This document shows positions 827-9,048 of a DNA stretch of 37,687 bases, in pieces; position 1 is the stretch's first letter, and each line of letters starts with the position of its first letter. The stretch is from a virus. The position numbers and the translations under genes are program-made. The DNA is taken from positions 1 through 37,687 of the IMG/VR virus record IMGVR_UViG_3300028384_000699; one strand, 5' to 3'. The notes under the pieces are model-generated. The model ran no database searches. It saw only the letters and a program-made list of their open reading frames with translations, and was not told the DNA's origin.

Positions 827-1262
827 TGTCTTTCATTCTTTGCCACCAATCTGTTTTATTGATGAGTTGTTTTTCTTTTCTATCTACCCAATCGTCTAGG
901 TGATCATGTATACCTCGATCCCAATCATCTTGATATCTGACGATATCATCTTCACCGAAGTACTCCCCAGTTTGTACTTCTACAAATTGTACTGGTTTAT
1001 CAGTTTTATTCCAAGCTCTATGCTTGCTACAACAAGGTATGGTTATAGATTCACCAGGTTTATCTAGAGTGTATTCATCACCATCTCTAATGACAGTTAA
1101 CTCTCCTTTTACTAGAGTCCATTGCTCTTGTCTCTTTTCATGAGACTGGTATGATAATCTTTTACCTGGAGCTACAGTTATAAGTTTAACCTTAGTAAAG
1201 TCAGTATCTAATAATACGTCATAACAACCCCAAGGTCTTTCATCATGCTCTAATGCTTGCAT
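819..1262 (-). CDS. Cupin, mannose-6-phosphate isomerase type II-like
   Basis: This 147-aa single-domain cupin resembles the C-terminal isomerase domain of type II mannose-6-phosphate isomerases (ManC/AlgA), which interconvert fructose-6-P and mannose-6-P. The opening ERPWGCYDVL, the APGKRLSYQSHEKRQEQW block (metal ligands from Q, H and E), then GELTV and ITIPCCSKHRAWN (the late His) follow that family closely. The usual nucleotidyltransferase half is absent. The C-terminal 40 residues (DDIVRYQDDWDRG onward) are acidic and typical of the family end. The start overlaps the end of folE by 13 nt. It could feed sugar nucleotides to the glycosyltransferases encoded 30 kb upstream, but that link is an inference. 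Confidence 0.8.
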   Translation of the reverse strand: MQALEHDERPWGCYDVLLDTDFTKVKLITVAPGKRLSYQSHEKRQEQWTLVKGELTVIRDGDEYTLDKPGESITIPCCSKHRAWNKTDKPVQFVEVQTGEYFGEDDIVRYQDDWDRGIHDHLDDWVDRKEKQLINKTDWWQRMKDNE

Positions 1263-1963
1263 ATACTTGCTAATTCTATATTTTTGTAAAACTCTGCTTT
1301 AGCGGAATCTTCATTTAAGAAAGCTCCTGATAATTTAGCTGTTTGCATTGAAGCACCGTGATGCTTAACACCTCTACAACTAACACAGTTATGAGTAGCA
1401 GATATACAGACGGCAACTCCTAAATTACCTTCACATATCTTATCTACTGCATTATGAATAGCAACAGTTAACTGCTCTTGAATAGCTCCTCTTCTTCCAA
1501 ACTGTTCTACTATTCGATTAAGTTTAGATAAACCTACTACTTTACCAGATTCTGAAGCAATATAAGCAATACTTACTTTCCCTCCAATAGTCTGGTGGTG
1601 ATGTGAACACATCGATTGAACAGGTATATTAGACTCTTGAACGATACCGTCATACCCGTCAGAAGGAAATGCAGTAATCTTATCTAAAGGATTATATCTA
1701 CCTGCCCATAAATCGTTTACATAAGCTTTTGCTACTCTGAAAGGAGTATCAGAAGAATTAGGGTCATTTTTATAATCACACCCTAACGCAGTTAAAAAGT
1801 CAGCATACGCTGAAGCTGCTCTTTCTATGATAACTTGCTTCTCATGATCAGTAAGTCTAGCTTCTGGTCCTTCTAATTTTTGCTTTTCTGCTAATTGAGT
1901 TGAAATACCGTTAGCAAACCCGGCTTGAACTAATTCTGTTCCTTCTATAAACTTTTTAGGCAT
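1250..1963 (-). CDS. folE: GTP cyclohydrolase I
   Basis: This 237-aa GTP cyclohydrolase I converts GTP to 7,8-dihydroneopterin triphosphate, the first committed step of both folate and 7-deazaguanine synthesis. The active-site zinc motifs are present: SMCSHHHQ mid-protein and HNCVSCRGVKHHG near residues 193-205, with the conserved GLSKLNRIVEQFGRR block between them. The length matches bacterial FolE plus a short N-terminal tail. It is cytosolic and normally a decamer. With queD, queE and queC a little upstream it completes the route to preQ0, so a deazapurine role is likelier than folate here. A 15-nt element shared with another gene's leader lies 20 nt before the ATG, so this may begin a transcription unit. 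Confidence 0.95.
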   Translation of the reverse strand: MPKKFIEGTELVQAGFANGISTQLAEKQKLEGPEARLTDHEKQVIIERAASAYADFLTALGCDYKNDPNSSDTPFRVAKAYVNDLWAGRYNPLDKITAFPSDGYDGIVQESNIPVQSMCSHHHQTIGGKVSIAYIASESGKVVGLSKLNRIVEQFGRRGAIQEQLTVAIHNAVDKICEGNLGVAVCISATHNCVSCRGVKHHGASMQTAKLSGAFLNEDSAKAEFYKNIELASICKH

Positions 1964-1983
1964 AATCTATTTTTGTTTTTATT

Positions 1984-2017
1984 GTGGTTCTACGACACAT
2001 TTATTATAATATAAGAA
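1984..2017 (-). promoter_or_regulatory. Putative promoter/regulatory block upstream of folE
   Basis: On the coding strand this block holds TTCTTATATTATAATA (2017-2002), which contains a TATAAT-like hexamer, followed by GTGTCGTAGAACCAC (1998-1984). Nearly the same pair, in the same order, sits upstream of the 85-aa gene at 3976-4233, where 14 of 15 bases of the second element match. The distance to the folE ATG is 20 nt. The shared layout suggests a promoter plus an operator or leader element, perhaps for early or middle expression. This rests on sequence recurrence only. Confidence 0.4.
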
Positions 2018-2024
2018 ATTCTAA

Positions 2025-2468
2025 TCAATTATCCAAATAATCTTGAATAGTTTTTGAATCTATTCTTTCCCAAGGGTAAACTACCCAATCGGTCGATTCA
2101 AGCCAGTTGCAGAAAAGGTCTGGTGTAGTTATTGTTGTATTTCTAACATCTAATGTAGCAACTGTGTAACCGTCTTTTTTGTAGCGTTTTAATGTTTGAC
2201 CAGAATCAGAGATATCGTCTACAATTAGAATTCTTCTTTTATTTTCTATTTTGTCTTCTTCTTCTAACTTCTCTAAATGATCTATAGTCATATGTTTAAC
2301 ACTAGCTCTATGAGAAATCATTACTGCTAATACTAAACCTCCTCTGGGTATACCTACTACATAATCTATACCTACTAGTTTAGATGTAATAATATTAGCC
2401 CCTCTTTCTACATCCTTCCAAGATGTATAAATTTTCTTTATTTCTCCCATGTATGATTTAATGTCCAA
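2025..2468 (-). CDS. Phosphoribosyltransferase, Gpt-like
   Basis: This 147-aa type I phosphoribosyltransferase transfers the PRPP ribose-phosphate to a purine-type base. The PRPP-binding signature RILIVDDISDSGQTL lies at about residues 79-93, the PPi-loop region GIPRGGLVLAVMIS at about 39-52, and the WVVYPWERID ending matches xanthine/guanine phosphoribosyltransferases (Gpt). The flexible-loop region is short. An alternative start six codons in (MGEIKKIYTSW) is possible, and both starts overlap the small gene before it. Beside the preQ0 genes it may salvage guanine or xanthine for GTP, or possibly act on a deazapurine. The second idea is speculation. The family assignment is secure. Confidence 0.85.
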   Translation of the reverse strand: MDIKSYMGEIKKIYTSWKDVERGANIITSKLVGIDYVVGIPRGGLVLAVMISHRASVKHMTIDHLEKLEEEDKIENKRRILIVDDISDSGQTLKRYKKDGYTVATLDVRNTTITTPDLFCNWLESTDWVVYPWERIDSKTIQDYLDN

Positions 2469-2614
2469 TTGCCAATAGAGTAATCTGCTTTATTAGAGGT
2501 TCCTACTGATTCTAGAACTTCTTTTAGGTAGTCCCATTGCGCTGGTGTTATGTTGTAGTGGTGTACTCCGGAAACAAATCCTCTAAGCCAATCCACAAAT
2601 TCTTTTTCATTCAT
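2438..2614 (-). CDS. Small conserved phage protein, 58 aa
   Basis: This 58-residue ORF starts at ATG 2614-2612 (MNEKEFVDWLRGFVSGVHHY) and ends at TAA 2440-2438. The pattern EF..WL.GF followed by ITPAQWDYLKEVLESV resembles short acidic proteins found in many tailed phages, in which a WL.GF helix precedes a QW...K..L helix. The function is unknown. The start overlaps the preceding small ORF by 8 nt and the end overlaps the phosphoribosyltransferase start, so it fills an otherwise empty gap with the operon's usual coupling. It was found by reading the gap. Confidence 0.6.
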   Translation of the reverse strand: MNEKEFVDWLRGFVSGVHHYNITPAQWDYLKEVLESVGTSNKADYSIGNWTLNHTWEK

Positions 2615-2741
2615 TTTCTAAATAATCTTTTAATTTATCAATTAATACTAGAACCTCTTCAGGTTCCATAGTAATGGCACAGCAGGTATTAACATTCTCT
2701 GCAATCTCTTCTAAAACCTCAATTGCTTCCTCTCTAGACAC
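2607..2741 (-). CDS. Small acidic hypothetical protein, about 44 aa
   Basis: An open frame ends at 2607 just inside the next small gene. Two starts are possible. An ATG at 2807 would lie deep inside queE. A GTG at 2741 overlaps the queE stop (the bases GTGTCTAG are shared) and gives a 44-aa acidic helical peptide, VSREEAIEVLEEIAEN followed by TMEPEEVLVLIDKLKDYLENE. I prefer the GTG because it gives a normal overlap length. Two cysteines are adjacent (NTCCAI). There is no recognisable domain. It may be a small phage accessory protein; that it is translated is likely but not certain. Confidence 0.45.
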   Translation of the reverse strand: MSREEAIEVLEEIAENVNTCCAITMEPEEVLVLIDKLKDYLENE

Positions 2742-3519
2742 AACGCTCAGTATCAAATGCCATAATATGAGATCGACCTGTAAATCTCCATCCTCTATCT
2801 CTGACAAAATTCATTACTATAGGGTAAGATTCCATTAGAGCTTCTCTAGTATCACCTGCAGGCATTGCCCATACTTTATTGTCTGGTATGTTACATTCTT
2901 TTAAAAAATCTTCTACTTCGGGCACCATGGATAATTCTTTATCCAGAACAGGTTTAATATGAAAGTCATCATGATATTCGATTGACTGTTTAATAGCGTC
3001 TACGTTAACTCTATACTTATTATGTCTATCGATCATTTTTTGATCTGTTACAGCTCCTTGAGGTGTTAGAACTCCAAGAGCAGGTACACTGTTGCTAAAT
3101 TTAGGACTAATACTAAGAAGATTGATAGGGTAATCAGTAGCAAGAAAGTGTGACCCTTCTGTTTCAATAGTAATAAAAATACCTCTTTCGTTAGCTAAAT
3201 GTGTTAACTCATTCACTAAAGCAGGATGCATAGTAGGAGAACCTCCCGTTAACATCATTTCTTTAATATGAGGATTAGCATCGTACATATCAATAATATC
3301 TTGGAAACAGTAAGTTCCTTTTTCAGGATGAATACTTGTATACCAGGAATCACACCATCCTCCTTCTCCAAACCAACATCTATGTGTACATCCTGATGTT
3401 CTAACTACGATAGTAGGGTATCCAGCTCTACTACCTTCTGATTGTACTGCAGTATATAGTTCTAAAACTCCTAGAGTTTTTTGATAATCTTCAATTCTTT
3501 TTAATTTCTTAAGGGACAT
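2734..3519 (-). CDS. queE: 7-carboxy-7-deazaguanine synthase, radical SAM QueE-like
   Basis: This 261-aa radical SAM enzyme is expected to convert 6-carboxytetrahydropterin to 7-carboxy-7-deazaguanine. The start of the protein follows QueE (EIYTAVQSEGSRAG-type substrate loop at about 20-33). The iron-sulfur cluster cysteines are C44, C48 and C56 in TSGCTHRCWFGEGGWCDSWY, a CX3CX7C spacing rather than CX3CX2C. EMMLTGGSPTMHP at about 90-101 is the glycine-rich SAM-binding strand, and FITIETEGSHF follows the family. The ATG overlaps the queD stop by 11 nt. It sits between queD and folE-side genes, which supports a preQ0 role. The odd cysteine spacing is described as a finding. Confidence 0.88.
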   Translation of the reverse strand: MSLKKLKRIEDYQKTLGVLELYTAVQSEGSRAGYPTIVVRTSGCTHRCWFGEGGWCDSWYTSIHPEKGTYCFQDIIDMYDANPHIKEMMLTGGSPTMHPALVNELTHLANERGIFITIETEGSHFLATDYPINLLSISPKFSNSVPALGVLTPQGAVTDQKMIDRHNKYRVNVDAIKQSIEYHDDFHIKPVLDKELSMVPEVEDFLKECNIPDNKVWAMPAGDTREALMESYPIVMNFVRDRGWRFTGRSHIMAFDTERCV

Positions 3520-3973
3520 ATATTGCGTTATTTTTATCGTGTTCTCTAAATTCTACTTTAACGATAGATACTCTACCGTCAGTTTCTTCCTGTATAAAAG
3601 GATTAACTTTATCGTAAACAAATTGAGCAAATCTTTCTGCACCTACTGCAGGTATTACTCTTACTTGAGCTACTCCAGCTTCGTTCATTTTTAAGAATGA
3701 CTCTTTGTATGGATCATCCTCTGCAACTACAAAGGTATGATCAAACATATAATCAAACCAAGCTTTTGGAGACATACCGTCAATTGTACCTTTAGCTCTT
3801 TTCATACCGCCAAAGTCCCATACCCAGTTTCTCTCGTCTAATTCTCCTTGAAAATAAAGTTTAAATGATACTCCATACCCATGTAAGTATTTACAATGAG
3901 TAGTTTCTGCTTTCCATTGACGGAAAACTGTGGAGTATCCGTCAAATACTTTTGTTGAAATAAATCTTCCCAT
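3509..3973 (-). CDS. queD: 6-carboxytetrahydropterin synthase, QueD/PTPS-like
   Basis: This 154-aa protein of the PTPS/QueD fold should convert dihydroneopterin triphosphate to 6-carboxy-5,6,7,8-tetrahydropterin. Matches include the catalytic cysteine C27 in THCKYLHGYG, VWDFGGMK (D53), the FDHTFVV pair D78-H79, and VEFREHDKNNAIY near the C-terminus with the substrate-binding acid. The zinc site differs from the textbook one: only H31 of the HGH pair remains (H33 is Y33), and the FSAAH histidine region reads YSTVFRQW. It lies between the 85-aa membrane protein and queE, overlapping queE by 11 nt. The fold is sure; the altered metal site leaves the exact activity open. Confidence 0.85.
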   Translation of the reverse strand: MGRFISTKVFDGYSTVFRQWKAETTHCKYLHGYGVSFKLYFQGELDERNWVWDFGGMKRAKGTIDGMSPKAWFDYMFDHTFVVAEDDPYKESFLKMNEAGVAQVRVIPAVGAERFAQFVYDKVNPFIQEETDGRVSIVKVEFREHDKNNAIYVP

Positions 3974-3975
3974 AA

Positions 3976-4233
3976 CTATACTAATTCTTCAATTATACCT
4001 ACTACCTCTGATGCTACAAGTACACCTGCAGCCCAAAATAAATCAAAAGGAATAAGTACATATCCTAATATACGAATTCCTGATTTAATAAACGACACAG
4101 TTTGATGTTTTTTTGCGTCGGGGTATTTTTTCTCTAAAGTGATTGGCTTAAAAGAGTAGTCTTGGCTAACTTCTCTTGACTCACGATTCATTAAGAAATC
4201 GTTAATTTCCTTTTCGGTTGTATTATTTGTCAT
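3976..4233 (-). CDS. Small membrane protein, 85 aa
   Basis: I do not recognise this protein. The first 50 residues are polar and charged (EKEINDFLMNRESREV and later DAKKHQT). Residues about 52-80 are hydrophobic (ILGYVLIPFDLFWAAGVLVA), enough for one long or two short membrane passes, so an inner-membrane location with a cytoplasmic N-terminus is likely. It ends 3 nt before queD and begins a possible transcription unit: its leader shares the two-part element found before folE. It has no cysteine and no lysis-type motif I can name. Its place in the preQ0 operon gives no clear clue to function. Confidence 0.6.
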   Translation of the reverse strand: MTNNTTEKEINDFLMNRESREVSQDYSFKPITLEKKYPDAKKHQTVSFIKSGIRILGYVLIPFDLFWAAGVLVASEVVGIIEELV

Positions 4234-4248
4234 ATTCGTGTTTTTAAA

Positions 4249-4290
4249 GTGGTGCTACGACACTATTGTCTATAAATATTAATATAAGAA
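4249..4290 (-). promoter_or_regulatory. Putative promoter/regulatory block upstream of the 85-aa gene
   Basis: The coding strand carries TTCTTATATTAATATTTATA (4290-4271), then GTGTCGTAGCACCAC (4263-4249), ending 15 nt before the ATG at 4233. The second element differs from the one before folE at a single base. The block lies between the tRNA-like gene and the queD operon, where a new transcript could begin. A short palindrome, TATAAGA-T5-TCTTATA, overlaps its upstream end. Function is inferred from recurrence alone. Confidence 0.4.
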
Positions 4291-4318
4291 AAAATCTTAT
4301 AATAAGCAACTTTTTAGA

Positions 4319-4460
4319 TGACCGAGACAGGACTCGAACCTGCGACCTCTCTACCCCTTTTGCTTTTCACGATCGTATATATTACAAGTCTCACTTCACG
4401 TTAAAGCTCAACTCCGCGCCAGGTTAAGGTAGAGTGTTCTTCCTACTGAACTACTCGGCA
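4319..4460 (-). tRNA. tRNA-like gene with 69-nt insertion in the anticodon loop
   Basis: Read on the minus strand, all parts of a class I tRNA are present in order. The acceptor strand is TGCCGAG (4460-4454) with CTCGGTC (4326-4320), six pairs including one G-U and a T/C mismatch at the end. The D arm is GTTC/GAAC with loop AGTAGGAA. The anticodon stem CTCTA/TAGAG is perfect. The variable loop is AGGTC. The T arm is GCAGG-TTCGAGT-CCTGT, and the discriminator is A. Without the excess the RNA is exactly 73 nt. The anticodon loop, however, is 76 nt (4429-4354) instead of 7. No CCA is encoded. Because the loop starts CCTTAA and ends AAAAGGGG, U33 and the anticodon cannot be placed. It begins 7 nt after the queC stop. 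It could be an intron-bearing tRNA, a tRNA-like regulatory RNA, or a disrupted gene. Confidence 0.6.
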
Positions 4461-4467
4461 TGGTGGG

Positions 4468-5262
4468 TTAGGCTGCGTATTCAGCCAACAACTTCTCTAC
4501 ATGAGCTTTTGCAACTTCATAATCCACTGGTCCAGTTTCGTCCTCGTATTGAACGGGATCTTTTCTGCCAAGATTAATAAAAGCCTCAATCCTCTCCACA
4601 CTAGAAGCAGACTTATAATCAGAATTTCCAGAAGGATATGGCTTGTAAGAAGTATTAGTTCTCTTGTATACCTCGTCAAACTCAATACCCAACTCACTAA
4701 CCAATTTTTCTCCATCTTTCAAAATTCCTAATTTATCTGTCTCTAGATAAGGTGTAAAGTAGCCTACTTTGTCTGCTTCCCAGTTACCCATTCTGAAAGC
4801 AGCATCATCTGCATCTCTAAATTCTTGTCTACAGTCTGGGTAGATTGCATGATCACCAGCGTGAATACCTAAAGCAATATCAGTATCATTTCCATTAGCG
4901 TTAGCAGCAGAGAGAGCAACTGCTTGAACTAAAGAAGCAAATATCTTATTTCTATTCGGTACTACGGTAGCTTTCATATTATCTTCCTCATAATGTCCTT
5001 CAGGTACATCTTCACCGCCTTGAACAAGATTAGAATTTAACAGATTAACTAAACCATCTAATTTAATAACTTGATATGTGATACTCTGACCATTAGCGTT
5101 TAAGTAATCAACTAATGCTTGAGCTCTTTCAAGTTCCACTCTATGCTTTTGACCGTAATCAAAAGATAAAGCTGTTACATTATCGTACTCTGATAAACAT
5201 CTGAGCAGTAAGGTAGAGGAGTCCATCCCTCCAGATAAAGACACTACGACATTTTTTGCCAT
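4468..5262 (-). CDS. queC: 7-cyano-7-deazaguanine synthase-like, QueC
   Basis: This 264-aa PP-loop ATPase is expected to turn 7-carboxy-7-deazaguanine plus ammonia and ATP into preQ0. The ATP pyrophosphatase loop SLSGGMDSSTLLL lies at residues 8-20 (SGGMDS 10-15). DYGQKHRVELERAQAL, VVPNRNKIFASLVQAVA, IHAGDHAIYPDCRQEF and the ETDKLGILK block all follow QueC. The C-terminal zinc site does not: where QueC has four cysteines before the final ER.AF motif, this protein has S205, D215, S218 and S221. Only two cysteines remain elsewhere. The protein is some 30 residues longer than usual, with an extra helical tail (VAKAHVEKLLAEYAA). The tRNA-like gene follows 7 nt downstream. QueC-family membership is sure; full activity is less so. 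Confidence 0.88.
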   Translation of the reverse strand: MAKNVVVSLSGGMDSSTLLLRCLSEYDNVTALSFDYGQKHRVELERAQALVDYLNANGQSITYQVIKLDGLVNLLNSNLVQGGEDVPEGHYEEDNMKATVVPNRNKIFASLVQAVALSAANANGNDTDIALGIHAGDHAIYPDCRQEFRDADDAAFRMGNWEADKVGYFTPYLETDKLGILKDGEKLVSELGIEFDEVYKRTNTSYKPYPSGNSDYKSASSVERIEAFINLGRKDPVQYEDETGPVDYEVAKAHVEKLLAEYAA

Positions 5263-8059: not shown

Positions 8060-9048
8060 TTAAAACATTGCGTTAGCGTCCCACTCCATATGGCCTTTAG
8101 AGTAATTGGTTACCCTATTAGCAAAGAAATCTGTTTGTTGCTTACCGGCAATTACTGCATCAAACCATTTCATAGTTTTTAATGCACCTTTATCGATTTC
8201 TTCTGCAGGGATGATAGGCTTTAAACCTAAGTCTGCCATTTTTGTGTTAACTCTATGCTTTATAAAATTCTTTAATTCTTCTTTTGTAAGATTTTCTAAA
8301 TCTCCTAATTCAAATACCTTATCAATAAAATCAAACTCTAACTTTAATGCTAGTTTTGCTGCTTCTTCAATTTCACTAACCAATTTATCAGTTTTAAACT
8401 CAGGGTGTTCCTTCATTAAAGTTCTGAATAACCAACATCCTGCTTCAGAATGTAGTGATTCATCTCTTACTGACCATTCAACTATCTGTCCTACACCTTT
8501 TAGCTTATTTCTCATTTTAAATGATAAAAGAACTGCAAAGGAAGAAAACAGATTTACACCTTCTGTAAAAGCTGAAAATATAGCTAATGATTTAGCTCTT
8601 TCATGCCAGTTAGGACTACCGTCGTGATTGTCTCGTCTCTTACATTCATTAACGCTTCAATTTTTGCCATAGTAGTTTCATCTTCCAAAAACTCGGCAAA
8701 ATCATCTAAACCTAATTGTTCGTTTAGTAAAGAATATGCTTCTGCGTGAATAGTTTCGCTTGAACCCAAAGTAGTCCCCATCATAATAACTTCTGGTTTT
8801 CTAAACCATTTTGTTACTAAAGTTGACCAATAGTCGTTTACTATAGTTTCTGTTTGAGCAAAGCCCTTTAGAATCTGCCCAACTACATTTTTTTCGTGGT
8901 CTTTTAAATTACTTTTCCAGTCAGTTACGTCTTGTGACATTGGCACTTCAGTATGTAACCAGTGTGCTTGTTGTTGCTTTAGCCAGTAATCAAATGCTTT
9001 TGGGTATTCGAATGGTTTGTACACCACTCTTTCTTTAAGTAAACTCAT
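8060..9048 (-). CDS. nrdB: Ribonucleotide reductase class I, small (beta) subunit, with one-base frameshift
   Basis: The di-iron radical subunit is split between two frames. The first part (9048 down to about 8633) runs from MSLLKERVVYKPFEYP through HEKNVVGQILKGFAQTE, GSSETIHAEAYSLL and KIEALMNVRDE, then reads into a wrong-frame tail ending at 8584. The second part, in the -1 frame, continues DNHDGSPNWHERAKSLAIFS, then FTEGVNLFSSFAVLLSF, GVGQIVEWSVRDESLHSEAG and the C-terminal FFANRVTNYSKGH. Both halves carry the iron-ligand E/H motifs. Adding one G near 8632 gives an uninterrupted 329-aa protein of normal length. No slippery heptamer is evident, so an indel or sequencing error is more likely than recoding. 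A stem-loop lies in the leader. Confidence 0.9.

Follow-up and report, generated by a model that had tools for sequence, protein, structure and literature searches.

A family of phage tRNA-like genes carrying one of three structured inserts at a single position of the anticodon loop

The stretch of viral DNA analyzed here (37,687 nucleotides, IMG/VR record IMGVR_UViG_3300028384_000699, hereafter the window) carries a tRNA-like gene belonging to a family of 31 distinct sequences, the window included, found on about 40 IMG/VR contigs. In this family the tRNA body is kept and its stems are compensated, and the anticodon arm continues beyond its stem into a bulge (UUAA), a helix that covaries, and a domain of one of three structured kinds. 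In all 31 sequences the body is that of a class-I tRNA, and the anticodon stem, 6 bp long, is followed by C-UUAA, an insert of 36-69 nt, and GG. As encoded, none of the 31 has the 7-nt anticodon loop with U33 of a decoding tRNA, the loop being replaced by C-UUAA-insert-GG. The reading favored here, held with roughly even confidence, is that the phages encode a tRNA-shaped RNA that functions intact and does not decode. The described RNA families that were tested do not fit, and the RNA therefore probably represents a new type of viral tRNA-like RNA.

The preliminary description had placed a tRNA-like gene at positions 4319-4460, and a cmscan search against Rfam recovered exactly this span on the minus strand as a match to RF00005 (38.8 bits, gathering score 29), in whose alignment the acceptor, D, anticodon, and T arms are all visible; the acceptor, D, and T arms are accompanied by conserved D and T loops. 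Default ARAGORN made no call for this gene, and with introns allowed it reported a tRNA-Leu(tag) with a 67-nt intron. The covariance model R1, of which the window gene is a training member, scored it at 159.7 bits. Read along the minus strand, the 142-nt gene opens with the 5' strand of the acceptor stem (4454-4460, positions 1-7), in which U1 lies unpaired opposite C72, followed by the D arm (4436-4451), with a 4-bp stem and the loop AGUAGGAA, and by the 5' strand of the 6-bp anticodon stem (CUCUAC, 4429-4434). The C-UUAA that follows (4424-4428) contributes C33, which pairs with the second exon G and leaves UUAA as a 4-nt bulge; were the RNA spliced, the same nucleotides would instead supply C32, U33, and the anticodon UAA. 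The insert, of the long type-A form, spans 67 nt (4357-4423) and starts with CCU, which pairs with its terminal AG and the first exon G. Within it lie an extra hairpin present in long type-A inserts only (4386-4414) and the core CGAUCGUGAAAAGC (4362-4375), kept in 26/26 type-A members together with its palindrome CGAUCG. The insert is closed by GG (4355-4356), after which come the 3' strand of the anticodon stem (GUAGAG, 4349-4354), the T arm (GCAGG UUCGAGU CCUGU, 4327-4343), and, read from the sequence, the 3' strand of the acceptor stem with discriminator A73 (4319-4326), CCA not being encoded. The 76-nt anticodon loop noticed earlier, and the lack of a U33 in it, hold if a canonical 5-bp anticodon stem is assumed. 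The insertion itself stands, but its size changes from 69 to 67 nt, as the homologues display a 6-bp stem and an invariant C-G pair.

The first interrupted relatives came from IMG/VR loci neighboring queC, and more were added by a core pattern; all members lie on metagenomic contigs, many of them incomplete. CGAUCG formed part of one search pattern for some type-A members, and CTTAA or CTTAAC was contained in the patterns for most later members, so that its invariance there is partly by construction. CTTAAC is also invariant in the first alignment, A1, whose 15 members were gathered via the QueC neighborhood and core patterns, and the closing GG, present in 31/31, was never in a search pattern. 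When the pattern consisted only of the 5' tRNA half and CTTAAC, 36 contigs were returned and 36/36 were interrupted tRNAs. L358 and L342 came from a broader pattern, a further match of which, L371, was not a tRNA. Of the two kinds of relative that the preliminary description had in view, with and without the insert, only the first was found, as no insert-free allele (loop CTTAAGG) occurred among 447 loci (4.0 Mb). Cultured phages and plasmids contained no copy by blastn, only partial matches to tRNA 3' halves, and a match to a tRNA-Asn of S-CAM7 belonged to an ordinary tRNA cluster. A window-like 5' exon pattern gave zero viral matches because the D loop of the window gene is itself unusual. 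No bacterial homologue was found at the sensitivity used: in 84,980 bacterial and archaeal genomes the core pattern gave 33 chance matches, none scored as tRNA by ARAGORN, and in 395 Bacteroidota genomes the insert model R2 gave three weak chance matches that are not tRNAs and the exon pattern gave no match. Such a family is not described in the open-access literature searched, and a study of the Theta ribozyme and phage tRNAs (PMC10879173) mentions neither introns nor anticodon-loop inserts.

Several other odd phage tRNAs were met and set aside. The 141-nt R1 match in Cellulophaga phage phi38:1 (L444 678-818, minus strand; NC_021796.1 20677-20817) is a different odd tRNA lacking CUUAA/GG, with an apparent 9-nt loop containing GUA, an apparent giant variable arm, and an RtcB RNA-ligase gene immediately downstream. 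The matches in MW202828 and Cellulophaga phage phi13:2 are likewise other odd tRNAs: in the former (L443 224-332) the tRNA is class-II-like, its anticodon region is enlarged, and another tRNA-like match, of 62 nt, comes after it, and the latter (L447 550-631) is an unannotated tRNA-like RNA with a T arm, an acceptor, and a displaced D-like arm.

The D and T arms are paired with covariation in 31/31 sequences; in the anticodon stem positions 28-32 are paired in all and position 27 in 30/31, matched by 0/5000 shuffles. Beyond the stem, C33 faces G, UUAA is unpaired, and the first C of the insert faces the first exon G in every sequence. The basal helix of the insert (B1-B3) is also paired throughout, B2 being C-G in 14 sequences and U-A in 17, and B3 being U-A in 11, C-G in 16, A-U in three, and G-C in one; the extra-helix pairing across the 31 sequences was equaled in none of 5000 shuffles. 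Whole-structure covariation, computed for the first 15 members, was 0.402 versus 0.164 in shuffles and 0.05-0.16 in slid versions, and such counts are inflated by kinship among the sequences, but the changes are compensatory and distributed across most helices. The long type-A hairpin (A1 columns 47-50/74-77 and 56-58/67-69) is 91.7 and 96% paired, with both-side changes at three pairs. In the window its outer part is GAGT/ACTT (columns 47-50/74-77), roughly the AAGT/ACTT hairpin reported earlier; the other hairpin reported with it, GTTGA/TTAAC, is not conserved, being missing from L073, L089, and all short inserts. Since single-sequence folding energies are ordinary (z -0.1 to -3.05), the support for the fold comes from covariation and not from stability. 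The structure in the window is far beyond chance.

These comparisons bear on three possibilities raised in the preliminary description: a tRNA-like RNA, an unusual intron, and a disrupted tRNA. The first two stand, the first being favored. A disrupted tRNA or an assembly artefact agrees with the rejection of the gene by default ARAGORN, but 31 distinct sequences, recovered from many independent metagenomes, have the same insert position and the same helices, a conservation that excludes disruption and assembly error for practical purposes.

Three unrelated insert cores (A, B, and C) occupy exactly one shared position in at least two phage lineages. Type A (26 sequences, core CGAUCGUNAAAAGC) has a short form of 36-38 nt and a long form of 65-69 nt, the latter consisting of the flanks of the short form with one extra hairpin between them; the GC/GC at the base of the distal insert is well kept, and the invariant palindrome CGAUCG has no conserved partner within the molecule. 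In type B (L011, L303, L305, and L307; 62 nt) the basal helix is longer, and UAAUUAACU...RUGCAYAUACCA is conserved. Type C is represented only by L342, in which an elongator-like body carries a 65-nt insert, and the sequence folds alone into the same bulge-and-helix plan. In types B and C, seven consecutive pairs follow the UUAA bulge. Self-complementary hexamers, namely CGAUCG in type A (4370-4375 in the window) and AUGCAU or GUGCAC in type B, could, to judge from their symmetry, be dimer contacts or protein sites. The conservation of the insert equals or exceeds that of the exons: long type-A inserts show 85.5% identity versus 80.5% for the whole exon and 72.3% for the exon stems, and short type-A inserts 83.7% versus 75.9% for the exons.

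Such a distribution might also be produced by a selfish or drifting structured insertion, in which case the tRNA would be dispensable and the insert a mini-element that moves without benefiting the phage. Several unrelated inserts at one site and the lack of an ORF in the insert are in line with this. However, the compensatory changes in both the exon and insert helices, the conservation of the insert above that of the exons, and the lack of any insert copy outside a tRNA context (in the collected loci, 395 Bacteroidota genomes, and a type-B core scan) make it improbable. The near-universal CGGGUUAAG, complementary to CUUAACCCG, could alternatively make the insert an antisense arm to 16S rRNA. 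Several type-A members offer a 13-nt pairing, G-U included, that was matched in 0/80 shuffles for the three inserts tested, the 16S site not always being the same; related members are not independent tests here, and one Bacteroidota 16S was used. The bases past CUUAAC vary freely and covary with the 3' end of the insert itself, and in types B and C as well as in several type-A members the pairing extends no further than expected by chance, which leaves the antisense reading very unlikely. A tmRNA-like RNA with a short tag (GUG AAA AGC ...) encoded in its insert is less credible still and close to negligible. In many type-A members a frame that opens at GUG does extend across the 3' half and ends at a UAA beyond the gene, but UAA appears three codons past GUG in L030 and L094, GUG is missing in L031 and L318, the frame is missing in types B and C, and the D stem is present in 31/31, unlike in tmRNA.

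The main rival to an intact RNA is a spliced tRNA. Excision of the 36-69 nt insert from between A36 and G37 would give the loop CUUAAGG, with U33 and the anticodon UAA, and would be carried out by a nuclease and a host ligase or by a small ribozyme of an undescribed kind. The insert has CUUAA before it and GG after it in 31/31, which would yield a canonical-looking 7-nt loop with U33, and ARAGORN in intron mode picks the CUUAA|GG product in many members; unrelated inserts at one identical site behave like introns, and the insert ends pair with each other. However, no sign of a known route of removal was found in the contigs searched. The archaeal bulge-helix-bulge, which requires a 3-nt bulge, a 4-bp helix, and a 3-nt bulge, is absent, only one 4-nt bulge (UUAA) being present. 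EndA (PF01974) was found in none of 15 carrier contigs including the window, with positive controls, and neither RtcB nor an Rnl2-type RNA_ligase (PF09414) was found in the carrier contigs searched, where controls worked; T4 Rnl1 (PF09511) had no match there in a search run without a positive control. As stated earlier for the window, the insert is too short for a group I intron: at 36-69 nt across the family it cannot hold the group I core (~200 nt or more) and is likewise far too short for the group II six-domain core including domain V, and neither intron type gave an Rfam match. The lack of an insert-free allele at the 447 loci and the conservation of the insert core above that of the exon stems also speak against splicing. 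The product itself, with a Watson-Crick C32-G38 pair, an anticodon stem of 6 bp, and a class-I body, would be ill-suited as a decoding tRNA-Leu; its codon is one that class-II tRNA-Leu reads, and an ordinary class-II tRNA-Leu(UAA) is present in the related L059. Splicing is thus regarded as possible but clearly less probable than the intact, non-decoding RNA.

The body of most members, not of all, is initiator-like. Position 1:72 is unpaired in 23/31 and A11:U24 occurs in 22/31; most of the 16 sequences compared have an initiator-like tRNA-Met of phages as their closest ordinary tRNA, and L027 and L024 are the best ordinary-tRNA matches of model R1. In L305, an initiator-like tRNA-Met with A.A at 1:72 is located immediately upstream of the interrupted gene. 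The window gene has the non-Watson-Crick 1:72 typical of initiators (U1/C72), and two other initiator traits are absent from it, as it has no CAU loop and its stem CUCUAC/GUAGAG is not G-C-rich. Initiator mimicry is not universal, because L342, of type C, has a G-U at 1:72 in a body resembling that of elongators.

In the window, the RNA gene follows the stop codon of queC (phrog_1550, QueC-like, E 1.4e-46; 4468-5262, minus strand) at a distance of 7 nt, and the two genes are co-directional and therefore probably co-transcribed. A preQ0-type set encoding GTP cyclohydrolase I and QueE-like, QueD-like, and QueC-like proteins surrounds the RNA gene (1250-5262, minus strand) and resembles that of phages that modify DNA with 7-deazaguanines. 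The link to preQ0 genes suggested earlier does not extend to the family: copies in L092 and L093 lie away from queC, the type-B and type-C carriers G418 and G417 are podovirus-like, and many copies are adjacent to queC because queC was the search bait. Some type-A carriers are relatives of Flavobacterium phage immuto (queC with 78.5% DNA identity). G417 and G418 have structural proteins in common, and the G417 portal is related to those of podoviruses of Flavobacterium, Cellulophaga, Maribacter, and Tenacibaculum; the plan therefore crosses phage lineages. We infer that the hosts of the carriers are marine Flavobacteriia. By ARAGORN, the interrupted gene is the sole tRNA-type gene on several long contigs, among them G002 (119 kb), G422 (89 kb), G424 (73 kb), G004 (72 kb), and G417 (69 kb), a status read, as is the absence of ligases, on metagenomic contigs of which many are incomplete and not on whole genomes. 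Two further features of the carriers were noted. A GroEL-type chaperonin-like protein of ~540 residues was recognized by eye in G417 (L393), with homologues in G001-G006, G418, G421, and G422. In the window, the small-subunit ribonucleotide reductase gene (8060-9048, minus strand) is in two ORFs separated by a single frame change, with hardly any residues missing relative to a relative, and this split is probably a sequencing or assembly frameshift.

An intact RNA is favored because the insert is conserved like the exons or more, because no insert-free allele occurs at the 447 loci, and because the splicing enzymes searched for were not found in the carrier contigs. Three unrelated cores at one position, one of them in a different tRNA body (L342), look like the swapping of functional domains, and as the only tRNA-type gene on several long contigs the RNA gene appears to be kept for itself. 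Phage tRNAs are usually interpreted as a means of codon supply or of resisting anticodon nucleases, VapC being among those that they are proposed to counter (PMC10264068). From the shape of the RNA and this proposed countering of anticodon nucleases, the likeliest guess as to its role, a tentative one, would be a decoy or inhibitor of a tRNA-binding host factor. Normal tRNA-processing enzymes would cut the RNA out of a polycistronic transcript, and its tRNA-like, usually initiator-like, fold would keep it stable. The tRNA shape might then engage the host factor, possibly the initiation machinery or a nuclease directed at the anticodon, for instance a toxin of the VapC type attacking initiator tRNA, and the anticodon-arm domain may block or redirect this factor. 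Somewhat short of an even chance is given to the wider claim that RNA-level insertions of this kind in tRNA genes form a new class, as either a mini-intron that is neither group I/II nor bulge-helix-bulge or a viral tRNA mimic that attacks or shields host initiation via a swappable domain. In any case, phages have repeatedly kept a tRNA gene that is unable to decode as encoded, and it represents either a phage tRNA-shaped RNA tool overlooked by default gene finders or a bacterial-virus tRNA intron without a known removal route.

Among known systems, T4 species 1 RNA (rnaC, 139 nt) is a stable phage RNA of similar size, located in the T4 tRNA cluster; its T arm is clear and its 3' end tRNA-like, and the record states no function for it. 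However, it has no recognizable D arm or cloverleaf, and model R1 matches its 3' part only (11.7 bits); with introns allowed, ARAGORN places a tRNA call on a portion of this RNA (L327 1909-2047, minus strand). In tmRNA, a tRNA-like end is likewise combined with an extra domain in place of the anticodon arm, but tmRNA lacks a D stem and has a tag frame and pseudoknots, whereas in the present RNAs the D arm is complete and a frame is not conserved. Group I introns of tRNA anticodon loops, such as that of cyanobacterial tRNA-Leu(UAA), are also inserted beside CUUAA, but the inserts described here, of 36-69 nt, have no group I core, and the body is of class I, not that of tRNA-Leu. The protein-spliced tRNA introns of archaea and eukaryotes are similar in size and in their position 3' of the anticodon; here, in contrast, a 4-nt bulge occurs on the 5' strand only, followed by a helix of 3-7 bp, and no EndA was detected. 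Phage initiator tRNA-Met (L027, L024, L305) shares the D stem, the T arm, and the unpaired 1:72, but its CAU loop is replaced here by C-UUAA-[domain]-GG on a longer stem.
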